Assembly (NCBI RefSeq): GCF_008843145.1
Contig: NZ_CP030265.1
Location: 2,466,001-2,530,000 of the forward strand
Reading direction: 5' to 3'
From: Skermanella pratensis
GTDB taxonomy: Bacteria > Pseudomonadota > Alphaproteobacteria > Azospirillales > Azospirillaceae
DNA: 64,000 bases
In this document: positions 15,051 to 56,605 of the stretch, in pieces
How the letters are laid out: each line of letters begins with the position of its first letter
How positions within the stretch are numbered: position 1 is the stretch's first letter
The notes under the pieces: model-generated
What the model was told of the DNA's origin: nothing
Database searches by the model: none
What the model saw: the letters and a program-made list of their open reading frames with translations, nothing else
Made by a program: the position numbers and the translations under genes

Positions 15051-16531
15051 ATGGAAAGCGACGTGACAGCACCCCTTCGCCGCATCGTGGGTGCGCCCGG
15101 CGCCCTCGCTGCGCTGTTCATCTCCTGCCTCGTGCTCACTTTCCCCGTGCTGGCGGCAGCGGCCGAAGCGGCGGGGGAGCATGGCGGCGCGCCCCATCTG
15201 GACGGAGCCTCGCTGGGGCTGCTCTGGGTCCTGCCGTTCGCGGGGATCCTGCTCTCCATCGCGCTGTTCCCGCTGCTGGCGCCAAATATCTGGCACCATC
15301 ATTTCGGCAAGATATCGGCCTTCTGGGCGCTCTCCTTCCTGGTTCCGTTCGCCCTGACATATGGATTTGACCTCGCCCTTTACGAGGTCCTTCATACGGT
15401 CCTGCTGGAATACATCCCCTTCATCGTGCTGCTGCTGGCCCTGTTCACGGTGGCCGGCGGCGTCAGGGTGACGGGGAGCCTGACCGGCACGCCGATCGTA
15501 AATACCGGCATGCTGCTGCTCGGCACCGTGATCGCGAGCTGGATGGGCACGACCGGGGCCGCCATGCTGCTGATCCGCCCCTTGCTGAAGGCCAACGACG
15601 GGCGGCGCCACAAAGTCCACGTGGTCGTCTTCTTCATCTTCCTGGTCGCCAACATCGGCGGATCGCTGACGCCCCTGGGGACCCGCCGCTGTTCCTGGGC
15701 TTCCTGAAGGGCGTCGACTTCTTCTGGACGACGCGGCAAATGCTGCTGCCCATGGCGCTGATCTCCGCGATCCTGCTGGTGATCTTCTTCGCGATGGACA
15801 GCTTCCTCTATACCAAGGAGCCGCCCCGGAAGGAGAAACCCCGGGATGCCGAGAAGCTGGGGATCGAGGGCGGGATCAACATCCTGCTGCTGGGAGGCGT
15901 GATCGCCGCGGTGCTGCTCAGCGGCGTGTGGAAGCCGGGTATCGGCCTCGACGTGTTCCATGTGCGCGTGGACATCCAGAACGTCGCGCGGGACGTCCTG
16001 CTGATCGGGATCGCGCTGCTGTCGCTGAAGCTGACCAGCAACGAGAGCCGGCGCCTGAACGCCTTCAGCTGGTTCCCGATCCTGGAGGTCGCCAAGCTGT
16101 TCGCCGGCATCTTCCTGACGATCATCCCGGCCATCGCGATCCTCCGCGCAGGAACCGACGGCGCGCTCAGCGGCATCGTCACCGCCGTCACGACGCCGGA
16201 CGGGCAGCCGGTCAACTACATGTATTTCTGGGCGACCGGCATCCTGTCGAGCTTCCTGGACAATGCGCCGACATACCTGGTGTTCTTCAACACGGCGGGC
16301 GGCGACCCGATGCACCTGATGCACGACCTGCCCAACACGCTGCTGGCGATCTCGGCCGGTGCGGTGTTCATGGGCGCCAACACCTATATCGGCAACGCGC
16401 CGAACTTCATGGTCAAGGCGATCGCCGAGGAGCGCGGCGTCAAAATGCCCAGCTTCTTCGGCTACATGGCCTGGTCGGGGCTGATCCTGGTCCCGCTGTT
16501 CGCGCTGACGACGGTGGTGTTCTTCCTGTAG
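15051..16531 (+). pseudogene. nhaD: NhaD-type sodium:proton antiporter, interrupted by one-base frameshift
   Basis: Ion transporter of the NhaD family (Na+/H+ exchange at the inner membrane), 493 residues if one base is restored. Frame one ends ...VANIGGSLTPLG then runs into a stop at 15707. From 15681 the +1 frame continues the family sequence (DPPLFLGFLKGVDFFW ... NAPTYLVFFNTAGGDP ... MGANTYIGNAPNFMVKAIAEE). Restoring a fifth G in GGGG at 15677-15680 rejoins the two halves perfectly, with no other damage in about 1.48 kb. This favours a sequence error or a very recent lesion. Start: MESDVTAPLRR at 15051 precedes a signal-like segment; 15024 is an alternative. Confidence 0.88.
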
Positions 16532-16628
16532 GGGTGTGACAGGGACCGCCGGGACCTGTTGGGAATCGTGCCGCCCCGCCGTGACGGCGAGGATCGGCAG
16601 TCCCATCAAACCAAGCCGGAGAAATGCC

Positions 16629-16805
16629 ATGACGAAGGGCACGCATAACGAAGAGACAGATCCCTTGGGCAAGCCGACCCATGGGAACGAGCAGCCGATC
16701 GGAACCGGTCCGCACGCACGCAACAGGATCGAGGCCGAACGGAAGGGCCAGGACAACAAGTCGAAGGGCGCCGAAGGGCGCAAGGCCGGACCCGGGCAGT
16801 CCTGA
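16629..16805 (+). CDS. Small hydrophilic protein, unknown
   Basis: 58-residue, highly charged, Gly/Asn/Lys-rich protein without hydrophobic segments (MTKGTHNEETDPLGKPTHGN at the start). It looks intrinsically disordered, of the kind seen for stress-related small proteins, but I do not recognise a family. A GGAGAA purine run sits just upstream of the ATG. It lies 97 bases after the antiporter gene and converges on the universal stress protein gene. Confidence 0.55.
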   Translation: MTKGTHNEETDPLGKPTHGNEQPIGTGPHARNRIEAERKGQDNKSKGAEGRKAGPGQS

Positions 16806-16832
16806 CCGGCTTCCGGCCCGGGCGCCCCGGGG

Positions 16833-17657
16833 TCAGTGCGACATCAGGACGGGTAGGTCCATGTGGCCCAGGATGTGCCGGGTCACCCCGCCGATGATCA
16901 GTTCCCGAAGGCGGGAGTGCCCGTAGGCACCCATCACCAGGGCGTCGCAGTCCAACTCCTCGGCGACCTGCAGGATGATCTCGCCGACGCTCGAGTCGTT
17001 GTCGTTGATGTTGTTGCGCAAGGTGACGTTGATGTCGTGCTTGGTCAGGTATTCGCAGATCTCTGCGCCCGACGGGTCCGGCTTGCCGGGCCGCTCGATG
17101 GTCAGGACGGTCACGGCTTCGGCATCCGACAGGAAGGGGATCGCGTCGCGAACGGCGCGCCCCGCCTCGCGCGTGTTCTTCCAGGCGATCAGCGTGTGCT
17201 TGCCGGACGTCGGGGTCCGCCGTTCCCACGGCAGGATTATCGTCGGGCAGACCGCCTGCATCGGCAGCTGGTCGGGAATCTGCAGGCGGACGCGGTCTTC
17301 CAGGTTCGCCGGGTGTGACTGGCTGACCACGGCCAGATCGACGAACGGGGTTCGCCGGGCCAGCAAGGCCACGTGGTCCCCTTCCTCGACCCTGAAGGAA
17401 TAGGTCACGTCGGCGCAGTGCCTCCTGACCTCGTGCTCGACCTCTTCCGCTTTCTCGTGAGCGATGGCGGTCGCCTCGGCCAGATAGGCGTAGGAGGCGC
17501 CCCGGCCGGTGATCCCGGCGGGCATCGTGACGGGCGTCGCGATGTACAGGATCTCCAGATAGGCGTCGAAGCGCTTGGCCAGCTCGATTCCCCGGTGGAG
17601 GCGATCGGCGTGCTGCTCGTCATTGGCCATGTGGAGCAGGATGGATTTGATCGGCAT
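16833..17657 (-). CDS. Universal stress protein, tandem UspA domains
   Basis: 274-residue protein with two UspA-like domains. Domain one is about residues 1-140 (MPIKSILLHMANDEQHADRL, VDLAVVSQSHP). Domain two is about 150-274 (KHTLIAWKNTREAGRAVRDA, then DALVMGAYGHSRLRELIIGG and TRHILGHMDLPVLMSH). The second domain keeps the ATP-binding motif pattern G-x2-G-x(9)-G-(S/T) in relaxed form (GAYGHSRLRELIIGGVT). Such proteins bind nucleotides and support survival under stress. It is a single gene, 77 bases downstream of the plsY stop side. Confidence 0.9.
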   Translation of the reverse strand: MPIKSILLHMANDEQHADRLHRGIELAKRFDAYLEILYIATPVTMPAGITGRGASYAYLAEATAIAHEKAEEVEHEVRRHCADVTYSFRVEEGDHVALLARRTPFVDLAVVSQSHPANLEDRVRLQIPDQLPMQAVCPTIILPWERRTPTSGKHTLIAWKNTREAGRAVRDAIPFLSDAEAVTVLTIERPGKPDPSGAEICEYLTKHDINVTLRNNINDNDSSVGEIILQVAEELDCDALVMGAYGHSRLRELIIGGVTRHILGHMDLPVLMSH

Positions 17658-22506: not shown

Positions 22507-22597
22507 CGCCGGCTGGCTTTGACTTCCGCCGGTGACGATCGGGCGCCCGCGAAACGCGGCGCCCGGCCCACCGGCCATCGAACCGGAGGAAGCAGCG

Positions 22598-23997
22598 ATG
22601 CCCAGGTTCCATAACCTCACCTGCACTACCGTTCGCCATGATGGTCCCGGCCGCGACGCGCGGCATCTCGCCCCGATGCTGTCCGCCTGCATGACGGCGA
22701 TGTTCCTGACCGGATGCGTGACCGGACTGGCCGGCGATGGAAGCGGTCCGGCGCGTCCGGAGGTCGCCGTCGCCACGCGCGTCGTTCCGGCCGCCCAGGT
22801 GGTTTATCCGATCACCGCGACGGCGCCCCGACTCCCATCGGGGTGGCCGCGGCCGAGCGGCACGCGATGATGGCGCTGGCCGACGCGGTAGCCGAGACGA
22901 ACCATGATCTGATGGAGAAATGCGCAGTCTTCTGGGGCTTCGAGAACGCGTTGCTCCCGACCCGCAAGGAATGGGTCTTCTACGAGGACGACTGGCACAG
23001 CCGCGGTGTCGCGGACTTCGAGCACGCGGAGTTCACGGCCCAGGTCCTTGTAGACGCGCAGGACGACGGGCAAGACGAGACTGCCGGCATGGGCCGTCTG
23101 CATGCCATCGTGGAGACGGCCCTCGCCGACACGCCGGCCGACCTGGCGGGCCGCGACCGGGTCATGAAGGAAGCCGTTGGCAGGATGGCGGAGCAGGGCA
23201 TGCCCTTGCCCCCCGACTGGTCGGCGGGCGAACCGGAAGCCAGCGACACCCGGCCCGTCCTGGCCGAGATCCTGCCTGCCGACGCCGTCGAGCGCCTGTC
23301 GCCTGAAACGGTGACGAAGGCTCCGATCGTCGGCGAGGACGGCCGGCAGCGTACGATGCTGAGCTACCGCGTCCCCTTCACGGAAGGAGCCTATGCCAAG
23401 CTGGCCGAGCGTTACGCGGAGGCGGTGTTCAGGGAGTCCGGCGAGTTCGACATTCCACCGTCCCTCGTCCTTGCGGTCATGGAAACCGAAAGCGCCTTCA
23501 ATCCCCGGGCCCGGTCGCCGGTCCCGGCCTTCGGCCTGATGCAGCTGGTGCCGACCAGCGGCGGGCTGGACGCCCACCGGTTCGTCAACGGCGAATCCGC
23601 CCCCATGCTGAGCCCGGAATCGCTGTACGACCCGGATACCAACATCAAGCTCGGCACCGCCTACCTGAAGCTGCTGGATACGCGCTATCTGAGGGCCGTC
23701 GACCATCCGGAAAGCCGGCTCTACAGTTCCATCGCCGCCTACAACACCGGAGCAGGCAATGTGGCGCGGGCATTCAACAGCACGACGAACATCAGCAGTG
23801 CGGCTTCCCTGATCAACCGCCTCCCGCCGGAGAAAGTGTTCGATCATCTGAGCGAGCAACTGCCTTATGAGGAAACCCGGCGCTACCTGGTCAAGGTGAC
23901 AGGAGCCCGCGAACGCTACCGAGACTGGGACCTGGTCGCGGGCCACACCGACCAGGTGGCCCGCGCAATCCAGGACACGGGCGTGCAGACGCAGTGA
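22598..23997 (+). pseudogene. MltC-like lytic transglycosylase lipoprotein, interrupted by one-base frameshift
   Basis: Murein lytic transglycosylase, 466 residues if corrected. GGAGGAAG precedes the start at 22598. A lipobox LTGC ends the signal at Cys40. After YPITATAP the frame ends at 22870, while another frame carries on TPIGVAAAERHAMMALADAV. Restoring a fifth C at CCCC 22826-22829 joins them. The rest is intact: a MltC-type N-terminal domain (KEWVFYEDDWHSRGVADFE) and a C-terminal SLT domain with catalytic Glu in ETESAFNPRARSPVPAFGLM, plus SIAAYNTGAGNVARAF. It would cleave peptidoglycan strands from the outer membrane. The lack of other damage argues for a sequence error. Confidence 0.85.
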
Positions 23998-42784: not shown

Positions 42785-43318
42785 ATGGTTGAACTGGTCG
42801 GGGCGGCCGATGGCCGCACGGTCGGGCAGGCGCAGGCTGGCTGGCTGCGTCGCGCGATCGCCAATCTGGAGGAAACCGCCGCAAGCGCAGCCCTCGTCAT
42901 CGTCGTGTTGTCGGTCTGCTGGGGAGTGCTCAGCCGGTACGTGACCCAGCAACCGGCGGCATGGTCGGGAGAGGTCGCCGCCATAGCCTTCGCCTGGGTG
43001 GTCTTCCTGGGCGCCGCCGCCGGCTTCAAGCGGGGATTGCACGTCTCCATCGACATGGTCGTGTCATTGCTTCCCGCACGGGCGCGCCGTATCCTCGACC
43101 TGGGTGTTGAAATCCTGCTCGTGGCGTTCTGCCTTTACATGGTCTGGTTGGGCATCACCTTCGTCATCGCCAACTGGGAGAACCCGACCTCGGTGTTGCG
43201 GCTGTCCTCGTCGATCGTCTACGCGGCGGTGCCGGTCGGCTTCGGCCTGATGGCGATGCGCATCGTGCAACGCGCGATCGGCGCCTTGCGCGGCCCGCTT
43301 CCGGAGCAGGCGCCATGA
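42785..43318 (+). CDS. dctQ: TRAP transporter small permease DctQ-type
   Basis: 177-residue four-helix membrane protein (AALVIVVLSVCWGVLSRYV, WSGEVAAIAFAWVVFLGAAA, ILLVAFCLYMVWLGITFV, YAAVPVGFGLMAMRIVQRA). WSGEVAAIAFAWVVFLGAAAGF is the DctQ core. The start at 42785 has GGGGAGAGG upstream; 42761 is an alternative. Its TGA overlaps the ATG of the large permease as ATGA. Confidence 0.92.
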   Translation: MVELVGAADGRTVGQAQAGWLRRAIANLEETAASAALVIVVLSVCWGVLSRYVTQQPAAWSGEVAAIAFAWVVFLGAAAGFKRGLHVSIDMVVSLLPARARRILDLGVEILLVAFCLYMVWLGITFVIANWENPTSVLRLSSSIVYAAVPVGFGLMAMRIVQRAIGALRGPLPEQAP

Positions 43319-44597
43319 ATCTTCTCCCGGTTTCCATCATGTTCGGAATGCTGGCCCTCAACGTGCCGGTGGCGTTCGCCATCGCCATGGCGGCGCTCAG
43401 CTTCTTCCTGTTCGCCGGCGGCCTTCCCATCAACATCTTCGTGCAGCGCCTGGTGAGCGCCACCGAGTCCTTCCCTTTGCTCGCGGTCCCGTTCTTCATC
43501 CTTGCGGGCTCGATCATGAACCATGCCGGTATCACCCGGCGGCTGATGGGATTGGCCGATGCGCTCGTCGGCCACTGGGTCGGCGGGTTGGCGCAGGCGA
43601 ACATCATCCTGGCGGCGATGATGGGCGGCCTCTCGGCTTCGGCCAACGCCGACGCGGCCATGCAGGCCAAGATGCTCGGGCCGGAGATGATCCGCCGCGG
43701 CTACGCACCCGGTTTCGTGGCGGCCCTGACCGCCTGCGCCGCGGTGATCACGCCGATCATCCCGCCGGGCATCGGACTGATCATCTACGGTTTCCTGGCC
43801 GACGTCTCGATCGGCCGCCTGTTCATCGGCGGCGTGGTCCCGGGCCTGCTGCTGTGCGGCGCGCTGATGCTCGTCACGGCGGCGATCTCGAAGCGCCGGG
43901 GCTATCGGCCGAGCCGGCAGCGCTTCGTCTCCGGGGCGGAGCTGTGGAGCGCCTTCACCCAGGCGATCTGGGCGCTGACCATCCCCCTTTTCATCCTGGT
44001 CGGCATCCGGTACGGGATCTTCACGCCGACCGAAGCCGGAGCGATGACCGTGCTGTACGCGACGATCATCGGTTTCGCGGTGCATCGCGAGCTTCGGATC
44101 GCCGACCTGCCGTCGATCCTGACGGAGGCGGTGCTCGCGACGAGCACCGTCATGCTGATCATCTGCGCCGCCTCGGCCTTCGGCTTCTACATGGCGTGGG
44201 AGAGGATCCCGTTCACGGTGGCGGCGCAGCTGGTGGCCCTGACCCAGGATCCTTACCTGCTGCTCCTGCTGATCAACGTGATGCTGCTCGCCGTCGGGAT
44301 GCTGATCGAAGGGACGGCCGCGCTGATCCTGCTGGCCCCGATCCTGGTGCCGGTGATCACCAAGGTGGGCATCGACCCGGTGCATTTCGGCCTGGTGATG
44401 GTGGTGAACCTGACGATCGGGGCGTCACGCCGCCGGTCGGAACCTTGATGTACACGACCTGCTCGATACTCAATGTCCGCTTGCAGCGTTTCACCGTCGA
44501 GGGAATGCCTCTCATCCTCACCTTGATCGCCGTGCTGTTGCTGATCAGCTTTTTCCCCCAGATCGTCCTGTTCCTGCCCAACGCACTGATGGGATAG
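43315..44597 (+). pseudogene. dctM: TRAP transporter large permease DctM-type, interrupted by one-base frameshift
   Basis: Twelve-helix DctM permease, 427 residues if one base is restored, exactly the usual length. Frame one ends ...GLVMVVNLTIG then SRRRSEP stop; the other frame continues VTPPVGTLMYTTCSILNV and ends LFLPNALMG. Adding a fifth G in GGGG at 44419-44422 restores the family motif G-x-TPPVG. Everything before is intact (MNLLPVSIMFGMLALNVPVA, MMGGLSASANADAAMQAKML, IIPPGIGLIIYGFLADVSIG). Missing the last helix would inactivate the transporter, so an assembly error is the more economical reading. Confidence 0.9.
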
Positions 44598-44659
44598 GAA
44601 CCCGTATCGGATAGCCTCCACAAGACCGAAGTAATCCCCGCCGCGGGCCATGACGCAAC

Positions 44660-44842
44660 CGGGATGCCGTCGAGTTCGCCGCCCTGGAATGGGTGGACTG
44701 GTTCAACAACCAGCCCGTGCTCGAACCCATCGGCAACATTCCGCCCGCCGAGGCCGAAGCACGCTACCATGCTCAAACCGACGATGTCGCCTTGGCGGCG
44801 TGACTCAACCAAACCAGCCTCCGGAAAACTCGGCGAGGTTCA
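44660..44842 (+). mobile_element. IS3-family transposase 3' remnant with IS terminus
   Basis: Last 47 codons of an IS3-family OrfB transposase: AALEWVDWFNNQPVLEPIGN, PPAEAEARYHAQ, stop at 44801-44803. The non-coding IS end follows (ACTCAACCAAACCAGCCTCC ... GAGGTTCA), resembling the right inverted repeat of that family and ending at 44842. The catalytic DDE part and the left end are absent. The remnant touches the stop codon of the methyltransferase gene on the other strand. Confidence 0.8.
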
Positions 44843-46234
44843 CTTTCCGGCAGAAACTCCAATGATCCCGCTCTCCAGATTGCCAGAGCCAACTCTCTCA
44901 AGCGCGTTTGGCAAAAGCCCCTTGAATGACATGGCCCAATCCAGTTGCGTGGCTACAACTCGGAAGCCATTGAACCATGCCATTCGTTCATATGCTCCTT
45001 GCGGAAACGTCTGTTCGTTGATGCCTTGTTCGATCAATCGCTTCGTAAATTCGTCGTATCCAGTGCCAACAGGTTCGCAAATCAGGAACAAAATACCGTC
45101 TTTTCTAAGTACACGTTGACATTCGTTCAACTGCGTGTGCAGGTCGGGAAAATGATGAAGAGACCGGCAAAAGACAATTGCATCTGCGCTGTTGTCTTCG
45201 AACGGCATCGCTTCGGCGTTGACACGAATCATCCACGAGGACCACGTCTTGTCCCATCGTCGAATGAACCTGCCCAGGCGGAGCAGGCGGAGAGATGCGT
45301 CTAGATTTACTAAAAGCCCTGGTGGCGTCGGGAACGCGTCGAGAAAAGATGGTCTGAGACCGCTGCCGACTTCTATTATCAGATTCGCCCGCTCGGGCAT
45401 GTGACGGCGTATGAATGCGGCGCCTAGTTTGCCGTCAAGATCTTCAGTGAAAGGTTGGCTTTCCGACATATCATCCGGCAGGCAGCCAAGCTCCCGCGTT
45501 ATGTCCATCGGCACGTCGATGTGCCTCAGCCATGCAACGCCTTCTTGAACCGCAGCCAATCTTAATGTGTACCGACCCGGCAGTTTGGGGGGGCGTACTT
45601 CAACGTGAGCCGTTGCGGCGCGTCCCGGCGGCAGGGCCACTGGCAGAGCGGAGCGAAGGCCTTCGAACTCCACGATTTCCCCTTCTTCATCAAGCCAGTG
45701 ATAGCTCAATGTCACAGGGTTCAAACCGGCTGTAACGATGCGGAACGGCCCATCGTTGCGAATTCGTAAAGCTACATAGAAGTGCTTTTCTATTGTAGCG
45801 GAAGCAGGTGCATAAGCAGGTCCGACTTCAATGTCCGGACGAAAATTGTCCAGTCCGAAGCGATCAAAGAGAACCTCCTCCTCCGCATCGAAAAATGCAT
45901 TGCCGCTGGGTGCCACCGGACGGATTGCCTGGCGCACCAGTTCACGTGTATCAGGATCGTCGGGAAGGCCGAGAGAGGAGATGATTCCGCATTCAGCCGT
46001 CTCGCCCTTAACAGAAACTGGAGGTGGTGTTTCCGGAGTCGTAAGATCGAGAATCCAGTCCTCTTCTTCTCTTGTAAACCCGCATGAGGTGCAGAGTAAG
46101 CGACAACTGGATGCAGCTTGCATTTCAGGCTTCCGGCAGGCAGGGCACCGAAGGCCCGATGCAATCAACCGGGCGAGTCGAGTTCCTATGGCATTGCCAT
46201 TGTCGCCATTGTCGATCTGCACTGAAATCCTCAT
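44840..46234 (-). CDS. Zinc-ribbon plus class I SAM-dependent methyltransferase
   Basis: 464-residue protein. N-terminal zinc ribbon at about 29-52 (CPACRKPEM ... CTSCGF), as in Trm112/UbiE-related fusions. Middle beta-rich domain (about 130-260), perhaps carbohydrate-binding, with VGPAYAPASATIEKHFYVAL and PPKLPGRYTLRLAAV. C-terminal methyltransferase (about 275-400): NLIIEVGSGLRPSFLDAFP, NAEAMPFEDNSADAIVFCRS and CQRVLRKDGILFLICEPVG. Base composition is clearly lower in GC than the neighbours, suggesting transfer. Its stop codon lies in the terminal bases of an IS3 remnant, so the C-terminus may have been cut or replaced. Position next to exporter genes suggests modification of a surface polysaccharide. 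Confidence 0.8.
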   Translation of the reverse strand: MRISVQIDNGDNGNAIGTRLARLIASGLRCPACRKPEMQAASSCRLLCTSCGFTREEEDWILDLTTPETPPPVSVKGETAECGIISSLGLPDDPDTRELVRQAIRPVAPSGNAFFDAEEEVLFDRFGLDNFRPDIEVGPAYAPASATIEKHFYVALRIRNDGPFRIVTAGLNPVTLSYHWLDEEGEIVEFEGLRSALPVALPPGRAATAHVEVRPPKLPGRYTLRLAAVQEGVAWLRHIDVPMDITRELGCLPDDMSESQPFTEDLDGKLGAAFIRRHMPERANLIIEVGSGLRPSFLDAFPTPPGLLVNLDASLRLLRLGRFIRRWDKTWSSWMIRVNAEAMPFEDNSADAIVFCRSLHHFPDLHTQLNECQRVLRKDGILFLICEPVGTGYDEFTKRLIEQGINEQTFPQGAYERMAWFNGFRVVATQLDWAMSFKGLLPNALERVGSGNLESGIIGVSAGK

Positions 46235-46445
46235 TGTTGTCAGTCAACTTCTCATCATCGTTCCTCATAACACACCCGGTGCCTCCGGACTTCTTCCGAA
46301 AGTTGGGTACCGTAACGACTTTTGACCTCACGGATCGCTTGAGCGACACATTCCAAGGACGAAGTCCGCCCTACAGACGAATTCTGCATCAATGTCGGCG
46401 CATGATGTCCTCTGGTGGGAGTATGCGGGGAGCATGGGTTTTCCG

Positions 46446-47249
46446 CTACCGGCCGACTGCGGTCTGCCGTAGCGAGAAGACCTCGCCCTGGGGGATGCCC
46501 AGGGAAGTCTCATAGGCCCGGATCACCTCTTCGATGGGACCTTCGGCCCTGACGGAGCCGTGCTCCATCCAGACGGCGCGGTTGCAGACGCGGCGCGTAA
46601 GTGCCAGCGAGTGAGTGGCCAGCACCAGGATGCCCGAATTCCCGACAAGGTGGTCGAGCCGCTCCTCCGCTTTGCTGAGGAAAGTCGCGTCGCCGGCTCC
46701 GATCCACTCGTCGAGCAACAGGATATCGGGAACCACGCTCGTCGACACCGCGAAGGCCAGTCTCAGGATCATGCCGCTAGAGTAGGTGCGGACCGGTATG
46801 TCCAGATAATCCCCGAGGCCGGAGAACTCCGCGATCTCCGGCCGCAACCGCTCGATCTGCCTGTGGTCGAGGCCGAGCAAGCGCCCGCGGATCGAGATGT
46901 TTTCATGGCCGGTGGATTCCGCGTCTATGCCGAGCATGATGTCGGACAGGGCGGCGATCCTGCCGCTCGAGACGATCTGTCCGGCTGTCGGCTCATAAGC
47001 TCCGGCCAGAACGCGCAGCATCGTTGTCTTTCCGGCGCCGTTGTGTCCGATCAGGGCGACGCGGTCGCCGTGCTCGAAGCTGAGCGTGATGTTCTGCAGG
47101 GCCCGGACGACGATCCGGTCGTTCTTGCCGAGGCCCAGGTGGCCGCCGGTGGTCATGTTCATCAGCGATCGCTTCAGCGACCGGCCGTGAGCGTTATAGA
47201 CCGGGAATTCGACCGAGACGTTGTTGAGGTCGATATGAACGTCAGACAT
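46446..47249 (-). CDS. ABC transporter ATP-binding protein, polysaccharide exporter (Wzt/KpsT type)
   Basis: 267-residue ATPase of the O-antigen/capsule export family. Walker A GHNGAGKT at residues 68-75, signature YSSGM, Walker B DILLLDEWIGAGD and the switch His in VLATHSLALTRRVC. The N-terminal region (FPVYNAHGRSLKRSLMNMTT) is typical of Wzt/KpsT. No C-terminal carbohydrate-binding domain is present, as in short Wzt and KpsT forms. The start at 47249 has AAGGA at good distance. The permease gene lies just upstream on the same strand. Confidence 0.93.
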   Translation of the reverse strand: MSDVHIDLNNVSVEFPVYNAHGRSLKRSLMNMTTGGHLGLGKNDRIVVRALQNITLSFEHGDRVALIGHNGAGKTTMLRVLAGAYEPTAGQIVSSGRIAALSDIMLGIDAESTGHENISIRGRLLGLDHRQIERLRPEIAEFSGLGDYLDIPVRTYSSGMILRLAFAVSTSVVPDILLLDEWIGAGDATFLSKAEERLDHLVGNSGILVLATHSLALTRRVCNRAVWMEHGSVRAEGPIEEVIRAYETSLGIPQGEVFSLRQTAVGR

Positions 47250-47295
47250 TACCATTCCTTCGCATGATCCGCTCCGCCGACGAGGGGCGGGGTCC

Positions 47296-48146
47296 TTACA
47301 GCCAGTAGGCGATGCGGCTGCGGAACCGCCTGAAGAACATCCAGGAGACCGTGCCGCCGACCAGCAGCATGCCGGCGAGGACGTAGTAGCTCAGTGTCTC
47401 TGGAAGCTGTCCCAGCAGGGGGGCCCGGACGACTTCTATCAGGTGGTGGAACGGGTTCCAGTCTAGGAAAAATCCAAATCTTTCGGCGAGAAGCTCCGGC
47501 TTGTAAATGATCGGGCTCAGAAAGAAGAAAATCTGCAGCGCGTTCTGGACGACCGGTGGCAGGTCCCTGAACCGGGTGCACAGCGGGCCGACGATTAGCG
47601 TTATCCAGAACAGGTTCGCGATCACCAGGATCATTCCGGGGACGATCAGAAGGAGATGCCAGGTTGGCACGATGCCAAACCACAGATACACCAGCGGGAT
47701 GACGGTCAAGTTGTGCGCCAGGATGATGATGTTGCGCCAGATGACTCTCAGGATATGGACAGTCAGGGGAATGCCCCCGCCCTTTATGATCCCATCGGCT
47801 GAGATAAAGACCGTCGTCGAGTCACTGATCGTCGTTGACAGGAAGGCCCAGACGATCAGGCCCCCGCGATGAACGGGATAAAGTCGGACGTATCCATCCT
47901 GAACAGCGAAGCATACAGGGTGCCGAGCGCCATCACCATGATACCCATGCTGATCGTGAGCCAGAAGGCGCCCAGCACGGATCGCCGGTACCGCTGCCGG
48001 ATATCCAGCCAGCCGAGCATTGACCAAAGGCGCCAGGAGGAAAGGCCTCCCAGGATGTCTCGGGCTGCGAGCGTGGTAAGGCTGGTCTCCGCGCGCCTCT
48101 GCGGGTTCGTGAGGCGGTCCTGTCGCGAGGGATGGGTTGCAGTCAT
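47296..48146 (-). pseudogene. ABC-2 polysaccharide export permease (Wzm/KpsM type), interrupted by one-base frameshift
   Basis: Six-helix ABC-2 permease of the polysaccharide exporter, 283 residues if corrected. Frame one: DIRQRYRRSVLGAFWLTISM ... ASLFRMDTSDFIPFIAG then a stop. The next frame: LIVWAFLSTTISDSTTVFIS ... RFRSRIAYWL to the end. A sixth base in CCCCC at 47861-47865 (GGGGGG in the gene) restores AGGLIVWAF as in homologues. No other damage is seen. Start MTATHPSRQD at 48146; longer starts up to 48230 are possible. Works with the ATPase directly downstream. Confidence 0.88.
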
Positions 48147-48606
48147 GTCTGCTTCAATCAATCGTTGCATCAAGGCGGCCGAAGGGCTTCTGAGTACGGC
48201 AATGTAATCGACCGTCTTTCGACGAAGCAACCCCGAGCATTCCGTTTTGCTATTGAACGCGTCTCGTTTTGCCGAGAGAACGGCAGACGCATACTTCCGT
48301 TCAAAAGGTCATACCTAAAAATTGCTATGACTCTATGCGTAACAGATTAAATATCCAAAAGAGGTGCCCAATTCATCGAGAAATCCACATAAGATAGGAT
48401 TACATCATCAAAGCTCCCTAGTTCAGAGAACTCCACCTATCGAAGTAGAGGGTTCCTTTGCGTAACACCTCTGGATATCGAAAAATCTTGCGAAAGCCGC
48501 GCCGGGACGACTACGGTGTGCCGCAACTTGGGACCTGTTTCAAAGCGATTTTCTTCTTTCAAGGCAACTTCCCCGATATGACATGCCAAGAACATAGTGG
48601 TGCTGC
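48147..48606. other. AT-rich divergent intergenic region of the polysaccharide locus
   Basis: 460 bases between the exporter permease (minus strand) and the coiled-coil methyltransferase (plus strand). It is strikingly richer in A and T than the rest of the window and has no convincing open frame. It probably contains the two divergent promoters, possibly with a long leader. No terminator or riboswitch is recognised. Confidence 0.6.
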
Positions 48607-50415
48607 ATGACCTCGAAATCAAACGCTCGGAATGAGCAGATTTGCGTTGACAGCCTCATGGAGCAGATCCGCAAGGAGGTGCAGCGGCAGTCACCCAGAA
48701 TGGCCCGGCCGGCATCGAGCGCGTTCAGTGTTCCTGTCACGCCTCCTGCTCCTGCTCCCTCTGTCAGCCTACCTCCGATTGCGCGGGATGACCGGGGACA
48801 CTCCGCGCTGCTTGGCGTTGATGTGGGGCGCAGCTCTTACCACTACGGCGAGCTGTTGGGATACGACGGCCCCCGGTTCGTCCAGATGGCATATCGCGTA
48901 TTCCTCGGCCGCGAGCCCGATCCGGAAGGTGAAAGCACCTGGCTCGAAGGGCTTGGCTCCGGTCGTGTCACCAAGCCGGAAATGCTGTGGCTGCTCAGCA
49001 GGAGTGCCGAAGGCAGGCACCGGGGGGTCCGGTTATCCGGTCTCGGCTGGCGAACCGCGTACTACCGGGCGCTCAAGGCCCCGGTGGTCGGCCGGCTGTT
49101 CCGGGCCGCGCGCAAGGTCAATCAGCTGCCCCACCTGACCCAGAGCTTCGGGCGTATGGAAGACGGCCTGCGGTCGCTGCAGGACAGGCTCGCCAGGATC
49201 GAGGGAACGAGCTCCGGTACGCCGCACGTCACCGCGAAGCTTCTCGACAGCAGCCGGGCGATGGCTGCCGAAGTGACTCAGCTGAGGGAGCGGGTATCCA
49301 ACCTCGAGTCCCTGAAAGGTCTCTCCTCCGAAATCGCGACTGTGCGCACATCCTTCCTGGCCAGGGAGACCGAAATGGTGCATCGCCTGGCCGTGCTGGA
49401 TCAGTACGCCAGCCGCCTGGGTGTCCTGGAAAGCGAAACCGTCAGGCGCCCTGACCTGGCAGAACTGCACGAGCAACTCGAAGTCCGCTTCAATGCCCTG
49501 AGCGAGGGGCTGGTCCGCCGCACCGAAGTCGAGGAACTGAACAGGCAGTTGAGGGAGCTGGTCGACGGCTCCGCGACACTGTCGGACACGGCCGTTGGCG
49601 AAGTGCGGGAGAAGGTCTTGCAGATCCAGATGAAGATGGCGCAGCTGCGCAACATCGTTCTGGATCAGGAGCGGCGCGTCAACCGCTTCCTGGCCGAGGC
49701 CCGGGCGCGGCTGCCGGGCGAGCCGCTCGGCGCCGACCAGATCGAGCGCATGGTCCGGGACAAGGACGATGCCGACGATACCGCCTATCTCGAATTCGAG
49801 GATCAGTTCCGCGGCACCCGGGCGGAAATCAAGGAGCGTCAGCGCTTCTATCTCCCCTTCGTCCGCCAAACCGTCGACTCGCACGGCGGCGGCGTCCTGG
49901 ATATCGGGTGCGGACGCGGCGAGTGGCTGGAACTGCTGAAGGAGCACGATATCAAGGCCTGCGGCATCGACATGAACCGGGCCATGGTGCGGCGGAGCGT
50001 CGAGGCCGGCCTGTCCGTGACCGAAGGCATGGCGGTCGAGCATCTCCAGACCCTCCCGGATTCCAGCCTGGAAGTGGTCACGGCCTTCCATGTCATCGAG
50101 CATCTCGGGATGAGGGAACTCGCCGACTTTATGCAGGAGGTCCGGCGCGTCCTGCGGCCGAACGGGATCGCCATCTTCGAGACCCCGAACCCGGAGAACC
50201 TGATCACCGGGGCGTGCAATTTCTACCTCGATCCAACCCACCGCAACCCGCTTCCTCCGGCTACGACCAAGTTCCTGATGGAAAATGCCGGGTTCACATC
50301 GGTGGAGATACATCCTCTGCACGCCCAGGAATTTGATCACGGCATCACGAACCTATTCCTTAAAAATCTTCTGTTCGGTCCGCAGGACTACGGGGCGATC
50401 GGGCGCAAGCCCTGA
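48607..50415 (+). CDS. DUF4214/coiled-coil/SAM-dependent methyltransferase fusion
   Basis: 602-residue three-part protein. A disordered Pro-rich N-terminus is followed by a DUF4214-like segment at about residues 90-135 (FVQMAYRVFLGREPDPEGES). A long predicted coiled coil runs from about 175 to 375 (FGRMEDGLRSLQDRLARIEG; LRERVSNLESL; LRELVDGSATLSD; QERRVNRFLAEARARL). The C-terminal class I methyltransferase is at about 425-560 (GGGVLDIGCGRGEWLELLKE, VVTAFHVIEHLG, VLRPNGIAIFETPNPENLI). This layout resembles chain-terminating enzymes in ABC-exported polysaccharide systems, where a coiled coil measures chain length. That role is inference. First gene of the plus-strand operon. Confidence 0.82.
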   Translation: MTSKSNARNEQICVDSLMEQIRKEVQRQSPRMARPASSAFSVPVTPPAPAPSVSLPPIARDDRGHSALLGVDVGRSSYHYGELLGYDGPRFVQMAYRVFLGREPDPEGESTWLEGLGSGRVTKPEMLWLLSRSAEGRHRGVRLSGLGWRTAYYRALKAPVVGRLFRAARKVNQLPHLTQSFGRMEDGLRSLQDRLARIEGTSSGTPHVTAKLLDSSRAMAAEVTQLRERVSNLESLKGLSSEIATVRTSFLARETEMVHRLAVLDQYASRLGVLESETVRRPDLAELHEQLEVRFNALSEGLVRRTEVEELNRQLRELVDGSATLSDTAVGEVREKVLQIQMKMAQLRNIVLDQERRVNRFLAEARARLPGEPLGADQIERMVRDKDDADDTAYLEFEDQFRGTRAEIKERQRFYLPFVRQTVDSHGGGVLDIGCGRGEWLELLKEHDIKACGIDMNRAMVRRSVEAGLSVTEGMAVEHLQTLPDSSLEVVTAFHVIEHLGMRELADFMQEVRRVLRPNGIAIFETPNPENLITGACNFYLDPTHRNPLPPATTKFLMENAGFTSVEIHPLHAQEFDHGITNLFLKNLLFGPQDYGAIGRKP

Positions 50416-50441
50416 ACCGTCGGCAATTGTCGAGGACCATC

Positions 50442-53400
50442 ATGAACATCTGCATCTGCAACGAACGTTTCCTGTTCCGCTTCGGCCTGGACCGGGTTCT
50501 CATCCTGATGGCCAAGGGGCTGGCCGACCGCGGGCACCAGGTGACCCTGCTCGGCACCCGGGCCGACAAGGCCATCGTCGACACCATCGCCCACCGGTTC
50601 GTCCAGGTTCCGGAAGCCCCCGACGATTACGCCCGCTCGGACTCCTTCACCGCCGAGTGGCTCGCCGCCAACTTCGCGAAGATCTTCCCGCCCGGTGAGG
50701 AGCCGGATGCCGTGGTGATCGGCGGTTGGCCGTTCTTCGAGGCCATCGATCTGTTCGCCGCCCGCACCGGGGCGGTGGCGTTCCTGGATCCCGGCGCCGT
50801 GCCGCTCGACGGGATGTCGGGTGGAGCGCTGTTCATCCAGGAAAAACTCCGGACACTGCGGCGTCAGCATCTGCCAAACGCCACGGCCATCCTGCCCATC
50901 AGCGACTTCATCTCGCGCACCCAGAGCATTTCGGACAGAGGCACCCCGGAAGGTATCACGACGATCCGCCTGGGCGCCGACCACATGGAGATGAACCTCT
51001 GGCAGTCCGAACACGTGAGCGGCTCGGGGCGGGGGGAAACCCTGGCGGCCGTCGAGCGCCTCAAGGCCGGGGGCCGGCGGGTCATCTTGAATCTGGGGCG
51101 CTGGGAGACCGGAAACTACAAGAACTCCGCCGCCTGTCTCCAGATCATGCGCGAGGTGCGGCGCACGGTGCCGGACGCAGTCCTGCTGGTGCTTTCACCG
51201 CCCGGCAGCATCGATCTCCCGCCTGACCTGGCCGGCGCCATCCACTGCATCGGCTTTCCCGACGACGCCGAGCTGCAGGCGATCATGGCTGCATCCGACC
51301 TAGGAATCTCGGTTTCCCTGTGGGAGGGCTTCAACCTGCCATTGGCCGAGATGCAATGGCAAGGTCAGCCCGCGGTGGCCTTCGACATCGGGGCTCACCC
51401 TGAGGTTATCGCGCATCCCTGGTTCCTGTGTCGCGACGAAGCCGACATGGTGGCCCGGATAACAGACGTCCTATCGGGTGCCACCCCGGCCGAGGCCGCA
51501 TCGAGCGCCAACCTGGACAGGTGGCGGCAGGATTTCCGCTGGTCCAATGTGCTCGATCGCTACTGCCGCTTTCTGGAAGATCTGGGCAAGCGGCTTCCGG
51601 CGGACCCGGTGGTGCCGCCCCTGCTCATCGTCGACGTCACGAACTCGTGCAGGGATACCGCCAACAGCGGCGTGATCCGGGTGACCAGGCGGCTGTGCCA
51701 CAGTCTGCAGGACTGGCTCGATCCCGTGTTCGTCGTCTGGAACGAGGAACTCCGGACCTACACGCTTCCGTCCGTGGCCGGTTACGAGCTGCTCTCGCAG
51801 TACAACGGGCCTCGGATGCCGGACCAGGCCATTCCTTACCTGAACCGCGCCACCCCTGTCACGCTCAACGAGTTCCTCGAAAGACTGCCCGGGAACGGCG
51901 GCGTCGATCCCGTATTCTTCCTGCCGGAGACGGTACTAGGCGACCGCGTCGATGGCATCCAGCAATTCATCAGGTCCCGTGGCTGGAAGAGCGTCGCCAT
52001 ACTGTATGACCTGATTCCGCTCCTCTATCCCGAATTCTGCAGCCACAACGTCCGGACACCTTTCAAAGCCTACCTGGGGCTCGTCGCCTCGTGCGACGTC
52101 ATCATTCCGATATCGCAGTTCTCCGCGGACAGCTTCACCGAGCACTGCCGTCTGCACGGAATGCGACACGGAACCGTTTCGGCGGTGCAGCTTCCCGGCG
52201 AGTTCGGTGGGCACCCGCGGGGTGCAGCACCGCCGGCGAACACGGCCGGCCCGGTGCGTATCCTGTGCGTGTCGACGCTGGAAAAGCGCAAGAACCACAG
52301 GAACCTGCTCAAGGCGGTCCGGATCATGGCCGAGCGGCACCCGGAGATCGATTGGGAGCTTACCCTCGTCGGCAATCTTTACGCGGAAGAGCACGAGATC
52401 GCCGATGCGGTTCGCGACGCAACAGCCCGGGATGCGCGGATCCGATGGCTTGGCGTGGTCGACGACGCGACTTTGAGCCGTCTCTATGACCAGTCGAGCT
52501 TCACGATCTATCCCTCGATCGTCGAGGGCTTCGGCATGCCCGTGCTGGAGAGCATCTGGCACTGCCGCCCGTGCTTGTGCAACGAAACGGGTGTCATGGC
52601 TGAACTGGCGGCCGAAGGCGGCTGTCTCACCGTCGATGTAGAAGATCCCGATGCTTTCGCCGACGCGATCGCCCGCCTGTGCCAGGACCAGAGCTTGAGG
52701 GAGCGACTGACGCGGGAAGCCGTCTCCCGGCCGGTCAAGAACTGGGACGATTATGCACGCGAATTCCTCGGATCCCTGTCCCCTCCGCGGGGAACACAGG
52801 GGGCTGTGTTGACTGTCGGTTTCGGCTCGGCACCCGGACACGCAGCACCGGTCCCCGCCAATGAAGCACCTGCTCCGAGCAAGGTAGGTCCCATGAGTTT
52901 CCAAGATATGCTGTACCCGAGCTGCCTGATGGATAACTGGCAGATGCATGATTCCGAACGCATGGCCCTGACAGGTCTGCTGGCACGCCACAAGCCGGCC
53001 TGCAGCCTGGAGATCGGCACCTATTTCGGCGGCAGCCTTTCCCTGATCGCCCAGTACTCGAAGGTCGTCTTCTCCGTCGACATCGATGCCGCGGTGCTCG
53101 ACAGGGTTCCGGATTATGACAATGTCAGCTTCCTGATCGGCCCCTCGACGGAGGTGGTGCCTCGTCTGTTCAGGGCCCTGGAGGATGAGGGTATCGATGT
53201 CGACTTCATCCTGATCGATGCCGACCATTCGGCTGAGGGAGTTCGCCGGGACATCGAAATCGTTCTGAAATACGTACCTCGGAAACCTCTGCTGATCGCC
53301 ATGCACGACTCTTTCAATCCGGACTGCCGGGCCGGCATCGTATCGGCTGATTGGGAGTCATCTCCCTATGCCCATTGGGTGGACGTGGATTTCGTTCCCG

Positions 53401-53564
53401 GCCGTATCGTGGAGGGGGAGGGCAATGCGGCAGCTGGGCAGATGTGGGGCGGTCTTGCCGTGGCCATGCTTCAGCCGACGCCGCGCCAAGGACGCGTCGA
53501 CGTACACCAGACAGCCAGACAGTTCTTCGAGAAATCGCGGGCTGCATCCTTCCACACCACCTGA
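50442..53564 (+). CDS. Giant fusion: two GT4-type glycosyltransferases plus SAM-dependent methyltransferase
   Basis: 1040-residue protein. Unit 1 (about 1-390) is GT-B: ICNERFLFRFGLDRVLILMA, NLGRWETGNYKNSAACLQIM, SVSLWEGFNLPLAEMQWQGQ. Unit 2 (about 395-790) is a second GT4 glycosyltransferase: DTANSGVIRVTRRLCHSLQD, VSTLEKRKNHRNLLKAVRIM, YPSIVEGFGMPVLESIWHCR with the family E-x7-E type motif. After a Pro/Ala linker, unit 3 (about 818-1020) is a class I methyltransferase (SLEIGTYFGGSLSLIAQYSK, DFILIDADHSAEGVRRDIE). The start at 50442 has GAGGA upstream. An internal ATG at 52893 with a purine-rich leader could yield the methyltransferase alone. Cytoplasmic polysaccharide synthesis. Confidence 0.88.
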   Translation: MNICICNERFLFRFGLDRVLILMAKGLADRGHQVTLLGTRADKAIVDTIAHRFVQVPEAPDDYARSDSFTAEWLAANFAKIFPPGEEPDAVVIGGWPFFEAIDLFAARTGAVAFLDPGAVPLDGMSGGALFIQEKLRTLRRQHLPNATAILPISDFISRTQSISDRGTPEGITTIRLGADHMEMNLWQSEHVSGSGRGETLAAVERLKAGGRRVILNLGRWETGNYKNSAACLQIMREVRRTVPDAVLLVLSPPGSIDLPPDLAGAIHCIGFPDDAELQAIMAASDLGISVSLWEGFNLPLAEMQWQGQPAVAFDIGAHPEVIAHPWFLCRDEADMVARITDVLSGATPAEAASSANLDRWRQDFRWSNVLDRYCRFLEDLGKRLPADPVVPPLLIVDVTNSCRDTANSGVIRVTRRLCHSLQDWLDPVFVVWNEELRTYTLPSVAGYELLSQYNGPRMPDQAIPYLNRATPVTLNEFLERLPGNGGVDPVFFLPETVLGDRVDGIQQFIRSRGWKSVAILYDLIPLLYPEFCSHNVRTPFKAYLGLVASCDVIIPISQFSADSFTEHCRLHGMRHGTVSAVQLPGEFGGHPRGAAPPANTAGPVRILCVSTLEKRKNHRNLLKAVRIMAERHPEIDWELTLVGNLYAEEHEIADAVRDATARDARIRWLGVVDDATLSRLYDQSSFTIYPSIVEGFGMPVLESIWHCRPCLCNETGVMAELAAEGGCLTVDVEDPDAFADAIARLCQDQSLRERLTREAVSRPVKNWDDYAREFLGSLSPPRGTQGAVLTVGFGSAPGHAAPVPANEAPAPSKVGPMSFQDMLYPSCLMDNWQMHDSERMALTGLLARHKPACSLEIGTYFGGSLSLIAQYSKVVFSVDIDAAVLDRVPDYDNVSFLIGPSTEVVPRLFRALEDEGIDVDFILIDADHSAEGVRRDIEIVLKYVPRKPLLIAMHDSFNPDCRAGIVSADWESSPYAHWVDVDFVPGRIVEGEGNAAAGQMWGGLAVAMLQPTPRQGRVDVHQTARQFFEKSRAASFHTT

Positions 53565-53595
53565 CCGCATGAACGGCAAGAGGCTTTAGGTACGA

Positions 53596-55245
53596 ATGGC
53601 AAGACGTGTCCTGTTCTGCTCCAACGTGTATCCGCCGTTTTTCATCGGTGGAGCAGAACTGATAGCCCATTACCAAGCCCGCCTTCTGAAGAAGGCGGGC
53701 TACGAGGTTACGGTATTCTGCGGCATCCAGGCTCCGGACCGGCCGCGCTACCATATGGAGCGGGAGGTTTACGACGGCCTGGAGGTCTACCGGGTGGCCC
53801 TGCACGATGCGGATTTCCATACCGGCAGCAACTTCTCCCATCCCGAGATCGACCGTCTGTTCGAGTCCGTCTGCGACGTCGTCAGGCCGGAAGTGGCGCA
53901 TTTCCACAACATAAACGGCCTGTCCCTGGGCATCATCGGGTGCGCGAAGAGCAGAGGGATGCGGACTGTCCTGACGGTCCACGACCACTGGGGCTTCTGC
54001 ACACGCAACACGCTGCTTCTGGACGACGAGACGGTGTGCCGGGACACCGTAACCTGCGGGACCTGCCTCGGCACGGCCCGCGATGAGCACGGACGTCCTC
54101 TCTCGCTCAGGATGCGCAGGGACTTCATCCTGTACCGGTTCTCCGAGCTTGATGCCGTGGTCTCGCCGAGCCGTTATCTCGCGGATGCTTATGAGCGGAT
54201 CGGGATTCCGCCGGCCAAGATGCACGTGATTTCGAACGGCGTCGATGTCGGCCGCTTCTCCCAAGTGCGCAGGGAGAAAGGGGACGAGCGAACCCGGTTC
54301 ACGTTCATAGGATATTTTGGCCGTCACAAGGGTGTCCACATCCTGCTGGATGCTCTCCGGATCCTGGCGGAACGACGAATCCTGGGTCAGCGATGCACGG
54401 TCAACCTGGTCGGCGGCGGCCACCTGGAGTCCGAGATCCGCCATTTCATCGTGGATCATGGGCTGGGCAACTCGGTGAAGCTCTGGGGGAAGGTTCCCAA
54501 TGCCGAGATCGAGGATGTCTACTCACAGACCGACGTGCTGGTCACCCCTTCGATATGGCCGGAGAACGAGCCTGTCAGTATCCTGGAGGCGAAGTCGGCC
54601 GGCATCCCAGTCCTCGCATCGCGCCTCGGCGGATCCATTCATCTGGTCACAGATGGGGTTTCGGGGTGGTTCTTCGATCCAGGAAACGCTACCGACCTGG
54701 CCCGGCGGATGACGGAAATAGCGACGCAGCCGGACCAGATCCAGGAGTTCGGGCGCGCCGCGCAGAAGAGCGTCCGGCGCAACACCCTGGACGGTTACGC
54801 GGCGCGGATCAGCGATATTTACGCCGGCGCGCCGGACACCGCTGCCGACATTGAGCGTCTGGTCATCTGCGGCGGCGGGGAGGCGGTCTCGCAGGCCGCC
54901 GCATCCATAGCCTCCCGGACTGCCGTGGGATCAACCGACTTTCTCTACCGCTTCGTGTGCCCCGACTGGATTTCCGAGAGGGACTGGGAGAAGGTTGATG
55001 CCGTCTGGGTCTCCGGCACGGACGATACCCTGCCGCTGCTGTACGAGGCGATGCGGCGCGGCAAACCACTCTTGGTGCCTGAAGGAAACCCGTCTCTGGC
55101 CGGCCTTTGCCGGCGCGCGAACGGAGGACTTTTTTACCGGAGCGACGACGAGGCGGAGCACTGTCTCTCATTCATCTGGAACAATCCTGAAACGGCGATC
55201 TCACTTGGGCGCAACCTGCGCAACATGCTGATCGAAGTACAGTGA
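53596..55245 (+). CDS. GT4-family glycosyltransferase with extra C-terminal domain
   Basis: 549-residue glycosyltransferase. The GT-B core (about 1-410) has SNVYPPFFIGGAELIAHYQA, SPSRYLADAYERIGIPPAKM, FIGYFGRHKGVHILLDALRI, VTPSIWPENEPVSILEAKSA and GIPVLASRLGGSIHLVTDGV. A region rich in Cys (about 135-160; VCRDTVTCGTCLG) is typical of some bacterial GT4 enzymes. After residue 415 an extra domain of about 130 residues (RLVICGGGEAVSQAAASIAS ... PLLVPEGNPSLAGLCRRANG) looks like a partial second GT-B half. It ends the plus-strand polysaccharide operon, 31 bases after the fusion gene. Confidence 0.9.
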   Translation: MARRVLFCSNVYPPFFIGGAELIAHYQARLLKKAGYEVTVFCGIQAPDRPRYHMEREVYDGLEVYRVALHDADFHTGSNFSHPEIDRLFESVCDVVRPEVAHFHNINGLSLGIIGCAKSRGMRTVLTVHDHWGFCTRNTLLLDDETVCRDTVTCGTCLGTARDEHGRPLSLRMRRDFILYRFSELDAVVSPSRYLADAYERIGIPPAKMHVISNGVDVGRFSQVRREKGDERTRFTFIGYFGRHKGVHILLDALRILAERRILGQRCTVNLVGGGHLESEIRHFIVDHGLGNSVKLWGKVPNAEIEDVYSQTDVLVTPSIWPENEPVSILEAKSAGIPVLASRLGGSIHLVTDGVSGWFFDPGNATDLARRMTEIATQPDQIQEFGRAAQKSVRRNTLDGYAARISDIYAGAPDTAADIERLVICGGGEAVSQAAASIASRTAVGSTDFLYRFVCPDWISERDWEKVDAVWVSGTDDTLPLLYEAMRRGKPLLVPEGNPSLAGLCRRANGGLFYRSDDEAEHCLSFIWNNPETAISLGRNLRNMLIEVQ

Positions 55246-55523
55246 GGTGCCTGATGGTGATGAAACGCCTGCGCCGGTACGCAGTGATTGCTGTCGGTCG
55301 TTGCTTTGTATTTCCGCTTTGACCGCGCCCGAATGGCGTTGTCCCGCATCATACTGCGCATCCTTACAGTTGCACCCGGTTTTGCCGACGAGAGGTGTTT
55401 TCAGGAGGTGCGATTGGGCTGTGAGAGTTTCTTCGGCCTAAAGTGTTGCATCGGGAGCGTCGGCGCGTCGGCCATGCCTGGCCGACGCCGGAGCCGGAAT
55501 TTTCAAAGACTTAAGGAACGTTC

Positions 55524-56063
55524 ATGTTTTTTGACGACTGGACCGGCCTGCTGCGGACCCTCGTGGTCGGCGTGCTGGCCTATATCGCCATCATATTGCT
55601 GCTGCGCATCACCGGGAAACGCACCCTGTCGAAGATGAATGCGTTCGACATGATCGTGACGGTGGCCCTGGGCTCGACGCTGGCGACGGTTCTGCTGTCC
55701 CAGAGCGTGGCCTTGGCGGAGGGTATTCTCGGCTTCGCCGTCCTGATCTTCCTTCAGATGATCGTCGCCTGGGCGTCTGCCCGCTGGCAAGGGGTTCGGG
55801 ACCTGGTTAAGGCTGAACCGACATTGCTTCTGCACAAGGGAGCCATCCTTGACAAGGCCCTGCTCGACGCACGGGTGGCGCCCGAGGAGGTCATGGCTGC
55901 CGTCCGCTCGAGCGGGTTCGCGAGCATGGAACAGGTCGAGGCCGTTGTGCTGGAAACCGATGGAAGCTTCAGCGTCGTCGGCCCTTCCTCCGACGGATCC
56001 ACCTCCGCACTGGCCAACGTCCCGAAGCCGGGCCCGGCGGTGCGGTCGTCCGACGCGGCGTGA
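55524..56063 (+). CDS. DUF421 (YetF-like) membrane protein
   Basis: 179-residue DUF421 protein. Three N-terminal TM helices (GLLRTLVVGVLAYIAIILLL, FDMIVTVALGSTLATVLLSQ, LAEGILGFAVLIFLQMIVAW) are followed by the small cytoplasmic alpha/beta domain (PTLLLHKGAILDKALLDARV, VMAAVRSSGFASMEQVEAVV). ITGKRTLSKMNAFDMIVTVA is the family signature. Function is not established; some relatives affect spore or envelope properties. AAGGAA lies shortly before the ATG. Confidence 0.92.
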   Translation: MFFDDWTGLLRTLVVGVLAYIAIILLLRITGKRTLSKMNAFDMIVTVALGSTLATVLLSQSVALAEGILGFAVLIFLQMIVAWASARWQGVRDLVKAEPTLLLHKGAILDKALLDARVAPEEVMAAVRSSGFASMEQVEAVVLETDGSFSVVGPSSDGSTSALANVPKPGPAVRSSDAA

Positions 56064-56104
56064 CGGGATCGAACAGTCGCGTCATCTCAACCGCAGGGGC
56101 CATC

Positions 56105-56604
56105 ATGCAGGATACCGATCTGCAGGCCACCGATCTGCAGGCCACCGATCTGCAGGCCACCGATCTGCAGGCCACCGTGGACGCGGAACTCTCGACGGCC
56201 CGGGCAACGATCGACCAGATGATCGACGGGTCGATCTCCTTCCTGCCAAAGTCGCCATCGGCGGCGTCGTTTTCGTCCTGTTCTGGCTGATCGGCAAAGG
56301 CGTCCCCATGGCCGCGCGGCGGGGAACCGCAGGTGGCGCTGCCCGCAATGTCGGCCTCGTGCTCGGGCGGCCGGCCCAGTGGGGGTTGACCCTGCCGGGC
56401 TTGCTGGTCGCGGTGACCGCAATGTTTCCCTCGGTCCGGCCGGTCGATCTGTTCTCGCTGTTGGGCATCAGCAGCGTGGCCATCGGCTTCGCGTTCAAGG
56501 ACATTCTCCAAAACTTCCTGGCCGGCATCCTGATCCTGCTGCGCCAGCCGCTCCGCCTGGGGGACGCACGGCAATCCGCGGCAGATGGAAAGGATGCGGG
56601 CTGA
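56105..56604 (+). pseudogene. Truncated MscS-family mechanosensitive channel, frameshifted
   Basis: N-terminal half of a small MscS channel. It opens with MQDTDLQATDLQAT, a fourfold five-residue repeat, then TARATIDQMIDGSISFLPK. The next frame continues VAIGGVVFVLFWLIGKGVPM and the pore helix (SLLGISSVAIGFAFKDILQN). One added base near AAA at 56258-56260 would join them. Unlike the other frameshifted genes it also stops early: after LRQPLRLGD the beta domain is missing and a stop comes at 56604. The gene is therefore dead regardless of the indel. Confidence 0.82.
56117..56176 (+). repeat. Tandem 15-bp repeat, four copies
   Basis: GATCTGCAGGCCACC repeated four times without change, encoding DLQAT each time in the first codons of the broken MscS gene. 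The identity of copies suggests recent slippage expansion. Confidence 0.95.
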
Positions 56605-56605
56605 C

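Follow-up and report, generated by a model that had tools for sequence, protein, structure and literature searches.

The 64,000-bp window analysed here (bases 2466001-2530000 of one 5,869,433-bp contig) comes from the soil bacterium Skermanella pratensis, most likely strain W17, and contains five genes that each read as two pieces in adjacent frames: those of an NhaD-type antiporter, an MltC-like lipoprotein transglycosylase, an AEC permease, DctM and an ABC-2 permease (Table 1). The first-pass annotation of this DNA had described six genes, the sixth being MscS, each split by one base lost from a homopolymer, and had interpreted the pattern as systematic error in the assembly. The split by a single lost base stands for the five genes named above but not for MscS, which is a decayed copy. 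Likewise, five of the six runs read as they were quoted, whereas positions 56258-56260 in MscS read TCG and not AAA. As developed below, we consider it very probable that the five genes are intact in the cell, and that the deposited consensus is one base short at scattered places.

The DNA controls were S. mucosa 8-14-6 (main contig 6,407,183 bp) and S. rosea M1 (6,098,631 bp), out of four congeners in all. A scan of named genomes gave 80 loci, at best 71% identical, which were left out of the comparisons. According to the available text of PMC11767975, both were sequenced with MinION and Illumina, to 820- and 917-fold, and assembled with Unicycler as hybrids; they are fair controls because they are hybrid-assembled at high coverage. 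For each of the five genes, the two frame pieces abut in one ORF (open reading frame) of a relative, which bears out the claim that restoring a base rebuilds a full-length gene. The NhaD pieces match residues 13-232 and then 232-515 of the S. mucosa ORF, the MltC-like pieces residues 5-73 and then 69-459, and the AEC pieces residues 1-252 and then 250-307, with S. rosea giving the same join in all three cases. The DctM pieces match residues 119-487 and then 488-545 of the S. mucosa ORF. DNA alignments place the missing base at the same sites: the relatives are one base longer at the NhaD site (four of four congeners), the AEC site (three of three), the DctM site (two of two) and the MltC site (two of two, a third relative not aligning there). 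Short runs shared by close relatives had been named as one observation that would refute sequence error, and no aligned relative has them at these four sites. DctM is 94% identical to the intact S. mucosa copy over 1.9 kb, with one single-base loss.

None of the four congeners carries a close copy of ABC-2, the best matches reaching 26-29% identity, so that the evidence for its site is the protein alignment. The ABC-2 pieces match residues 52-119 and then 112-307 of a more distant relative's ORF, at 42-60% identity in the three of three relatives inspected. One of these three also gives a weak off-frame match, as expected where the DNA is conserved, and no further lesion is visible in the protein alignments. 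All five genes are otherwise full length, and the statement that they bear no other damage needs one amendment: NhaD is one base longer than both relatives at 15018, six bases upstream of its likely ATG (15024).

Table 1. Features of the Skermanella pratensis window (window coordinates; pieces are the open frames on either side of a frame change).
Feature	Position	Strand	Evidence
NhaD-type antiporter piece one (CitMHS_2)	15024..15707	+	Pfam PF16980 in both pieces; abuts piece two
NhaD GGGG run at frame change	15677..15680	+	4/4 congeners one base longer
NhaD piece two, from first possible start codon	15740..16531	+	Pfam PF16980; abuts piece one
MltC-like lipoprotein transglycosylase piece one	22532..22870	+	residues 36-104 correspond to S. 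mucosa ORF 5-73
MltC-like piece two (SLT domain)	22714..23997	+	Pfam PF01464
MltC-like CCCC run at frame change	22826..22829	+	DNA alignment
AEC permease piece two, C-terminal part	27080..27577	-	Pfam PF03547, E 0.00016, below cut-off
AEC permease piece one (Mem_trans)	27244..28002	-	Pfam PF03547
AEC CCC run (plus-strand letters) at frame change	27256..27258	-	DNA alignment
tRNA-Ser (GCT)	33376..33465	+	end of collinearity with both relatives
Left part of ~70.7 kb block	33466..64000	.	mosaic; no counterpart at site in S. mucosa
MarR-like remnant	39581..39797	-	90% identical to S. mucosa over 217 bp; weak Pfam MarR match (E 0.033)
DctM piece one	43315..44448	+	Pfam PF06808
DctM piece two, last 58 residues match	43854..44597	+	Pfam search and relative ORF alignment
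DctM GGGG run at frame change	44419..44422	+	DNA alignment
ABC-2 permease piece two	47296..48027	-	Pfam PF01061
ABC-2 permease piece one	47856..48230	-	no Pfam match; aligns just before piece two in relative ORFs
ABC-2 CCCCC run (plus-strand letters) at frame change	47861..47865	-	no close DNA relative
MscS remnant	56105..56837 (start approximate)	+	~540 bp internal loss, extra 15-bp units, one-base loss

Frameshifts were then counted in three regions of the S. pratensis chromosome (1.00-1.36, 2.406-2.4995 and 4.00-4.44 Mb), S. rosea sequence covering only part of the first and third. In this three-genome test, a gene entered the count if two genomes had an intact, coding-like ORF for it, and the third genome was scored. 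A frameshift was called clean when 17 of 20 flanking bases matched and the site lay away from the gene ends; one S. pratensis stretch and six S. mucosa stretches were left out of the counts as non-syntenic. Clean frameshifts were present in 27 of 385 genes in S. pratensis. The corresponding figures were 3 of 371 for S. mucosa (Fisher P = 6e-6 against S. pratensis) and 4 of 359 for S. rosea (P = 3e-5), with related genes not fully independent. Of the three S. mucosa cases, one mirrors an S. pratensis loss, and MltC is absent from the 27, its linker being too divergent for the filter. Genes with at least one one-base loss numbered 23 of 385 in S. pratensis, 1 of 371 in S. mucosa and 2 of 359 in S. 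rosea. Stop-codon breaks, by comparison, show no S. pratensis excess (3, versus 0 in S. mucosa and 5 in S. rosea). On a smaller sample, the tightened filter gave 15 of 226, 0 of 216 and 4 of 217 genes for S. pratensis, S. mucosa and S. rosea. In a two-genome test, 538 S. pratensis genes showed 33 losses and 4 gains of one base, and 539 S. mucosa genes showed 4 losses and 23 gains, many of these 23 gains mirroring S. pratensis losses. The first coding filter was discarded as too strict, having retained NhaD yet lost MltC and AEC. The idea of a local hot spot was also set aside: the window holds 5 lesions versus 3.6 expected, assuming 58 kb of coding DNA and the sampled rate, with P(5 or more) = 0.30.

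The S. pratensis lesions run in one direction. Of the 36 gaps, 30 are losses and 3 are gains of one base; the remaining three are +2, -2 and -32. Judged by the relative's letter, the lost base is G or C in 23 of the 30 losses, and 17 of them touch a remaining G/C run of at least three. Genome-wide, the first-pass description of the lesions as all in runs is therefore too strong. A gene-blind count of G/C runs shortened by one gave 7 of 20,129 in S. pratensis, 0 of 18,873 in S. mucosa and 1 of 21,159 in S. rosea. Broken down by run length, one shortening each was seen among the 16,761 S. pratensis runs of length 2 and the 2,872 of length 3, two among the 432 of length 4, three among the 60 of length 5 and none among the 4 of length 6, a climb from length 2 to length 5 that is based on small counts. 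One GGDEF-EAL gene carries six losses and no gain, and its third-codon-position share of substitutions is still 0.70. At contig positions 1222589-1225910, a GGDEF-EAL gene and the adjoining NUDIX gene together show seven one-base losses and one two-base loss, perhaps marking a low-coverage spot.

Losses found across the sampled regions and rising with run length would also be produced by a real mutator strain, for example one with a mismatch-repair defect, losing bases in runs genome-wide. Mismatch-repair defects, however, produce gains alongside losses and act chiefly on long runs, whereas the runs here are short and 30 losses stand against 3 gains; moreover, the conserved and probably indispensable genes described next would still be dead in such a strain. 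We give this explanation almost no credence.

Genes that the cell is expected to need carry the same lesions. glmS and ispG, the two for which copy number was checked, are each found once, as two abutting pieces; a third glmS match is 33% identical over 220 residues. The cut in glmS falls near the middle, at residue 340 of 614. One-base losses also split rpoN, fumC, uvrB and the genes for ALA synthase, IspH (LytB) and cytidylate kinase (cmk), all assigned by family match. The ispG and cytidylate kinase lesions were seen only in the two-genome comparison. IspG, IspH and ALA synthase are generally needed in such bacteria. Because glmS, ispG and other needed genes are split, the cell is unlikely to carry these lesions. 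Relaxed selection was not seen either, the third-codon-position share of substitutions being 0.707 in 24 broken genes versus 0.720 in 338 intact ones (P 0.99).

These data bear on the possibility that the antiporter, the permeases, the exporter and the murein hydrolase are true, very recent pseudogenes, lost through slips in runs. Each lesion is a simple frameshift missing in the relatives, as recent mutation would also give, and real remnants (MscS and MarR) share the window. Yet glmS, ispG, ispH and the ALA synthase gene carry like lesions, losses exceed gains by 30 to 3, and neither an excess of stop codons nor relaxed selection accompanies them, so that we find recent pseudogenes very unlikely. 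Another possibility is that the short runs are real and that programmed ribosomal frameshifting or transcription slippage yields the proteins. Most window lesions do lie in runs, where slippage could occur, but all five genes are single-frame in the relatives, so the frame change is not conserved, and many unrelated genes would require such slippage. We regard this as extremely improbable, as we do its genome-wide version, in which transcription slippage on G/C runs would make working proteins from a few hundred genes stored out of frame.

Taken together, these results support the first-pass interpretation of systematic single-base assembly error, with losses that recur in the three sampled regions, are rare in both relatives and hit needed genes. 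The features of a systematic run-length error were found one by one: the sequence differs from independent assemblies of relatives at the four of the five sites that are testable on DNA; the lesions are spread over the genome, unevenly between regions; they go in one direction, 30 losses versus 3 gains, and depend on run length; and probably indispensable genes (glmS, ispG and others by family match) are hit as freely as the rest. The mixed lesions of pseudogene decay were found in MscS only. We propose that the consensus would drop single bases, chiefly within short runs of G or C or next to them, and that such a drop inside a gene would leave it as two halves; the shortfall may have arisen in the reads or in consensus calling.

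Several points weigh against assembly error. The origin of the base losses was judged from assembled sequences. The S. pratensis rate is uneven by region (4 of 54, 7 of 207 and 16 of 124 genes), none of 19 genes is hit at 2.57-2.61 Mb, and 13 of the 30 losses touch no G/C run of at least three. Some of the 27 cases are doubtful gene models, such as 4207236-4208426, which has a third-position share of 0.47 and no Pfam match. The cut in ispG comes early, at residue 26 of 381, so that most of the protein might be rescued by an internal start, and the selection test is blind to very recent lesions. A looser filter, which scored 18 of 250 genes in S. pratensis, 2 of 252 in S. mucosa and 15 of 260 in S. 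rosea, set S. pratensis apart from S. mucosa but not from S. rosea; its stop breaks numbered 8, 4 and 12 in the same order. Many of the S. rosea cases listed under that filter lie close to gene starts or come from alignments with several gaps, and the requirement for clean flanks and for a site away from gene ends was added after the looser-filter result was known. Finally, the first 93 kb sample gave 7 clean short frame-changing indels of any kind in S. pratensis versus 8 and 15 in the relatives, and the signal is therefore specific to one-base losses within genes and runs.

The two other damaged genes of the window are of a different kind. MscS has lost one base and is truncated, as had been reported, but the base is missing between 56251 and 56252, next to AAG and outside any A run, and the gene looks like a decayed fragment, not the product of assembly error. 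At the start of the remnant (about 56105-56170), a 15-bp unit is repeated more often than in either S. mucosa or S. rosea, as read off the alignment. A second MscS copy elsewhere on the chromosome has an open frame of 330 residues. The MarR remnant had been counted as a further assembly-error case; a short 217-bp S. mucosa match with a weak Pfam score, it reads as decay instead. Both stretches look like real remnants, separate from the base-loss error.

Window bases 1 to about 33,467 are collinear, in inverted orientation, with S. mucosa and S. rosea, and this collinearity ends at the tRNA-Ser (serine transfer RNA) gene. The block that follows extends as far as about 104132 (window coordinates) and is a mosaic whose pieces occur at other places in the relatives, in part on non-chromosomal contigs of S. 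rosea and S. mucosa. A search of the window and the next 80 kb, with up to three errors allowed, found no repeat of the tRNA end, and an integrase was not sought systematically. The backbone holds NhaD, MltC and AEC, and the block holds DctM and ABC-2; since lesions occur in both, the block does not explain the pattern. Its composition is relevant to a mixed case, in which most of the five lesions would be errors and one a true frameshift: ABC-2 sits in the mosaic beside real remnants, and its run has no close DNA relative. In the same block, however, DctM differs from its 94% identical intact S. mucosa copy by a single one-base loss, and ABC-2 shows no other lesion in protein alignments. We judge the mixed case unlikely.

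Other features of the block and of the genome were recorded. Many Azospirillaceae genomes share, at 84-88% identity, the 230-bp stretch at 44614-44844; of the 12 plasmid matches listed for it, 4 are covered by an IS3 transposase annotation. Between 46446 and 55245, an ABC-2 exporter ATPase stands beside methyltransferases and large glycosyltransferases, an arrangement resembling a surface-polysaccharide locus. The S. pratensis genome is a single 5.87-Mb contig, versus 4 plasmids in S. mucosa and 6 in S. rosea per the accessible part of PMC11767975; S. pratensis plasmids may be absent or undeposited. A search of the contig with the 23S ribosomal RNA (rRNA) family returned four partial matches only, and the same part of that paper states six rRNA operons for W17. 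With partial matches only, rRNA was dropped as an error control.

The type strain of the species is KCTC 62434, a meadow-soil isolate. If W17 is the source of the sequence, a one-genome-per-species collection has this genome as the representative of the species. Of the sampled genes, about 7% (27 of 385), and by extrapolation a few hundred genes, would be annotated as broken or absent. For the affected genes, conclusions on pathways and gene loss based on the S. pratensis genome would be wrong, and its 99.83% completeness says little about base-level accuracy.

Ordinary pseudogene decay is matched by the MscS and MarR remnants only; the five genes, by contrast, are otherwise full length and show normal substitution patterns where tested. 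They resemble the frame transitions catalogued by GeneTack (PMC3711429) in being read in two adjacent frames, but GeneTack, as its available text describes, sought evolutionarily conserved transitions, whereas the relatives of S. pratensis are single-frame. A further parallel is found in the accessible part of the Kastor paper (PMC12007338), which strongly ties long-read deletion errors to runs between two and eight bases long, with most of them following four to five bases; according to that paper, a small fraction removes a base that is not repeated, and genes are pseudogenised as a result of these errors. The association with runs, some losses outside runs and broken genes are all seen in S. 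pratensis. In the Kastor example A/T runs are hit more than G/C runs, whereas in S. pratensis, whose genome is GC-rich, G and C account for 23 of the 30 lost letters. As far as that part of the paper goes, gene-fragmenting single-base error of this kind is already well described (PMC12007338).

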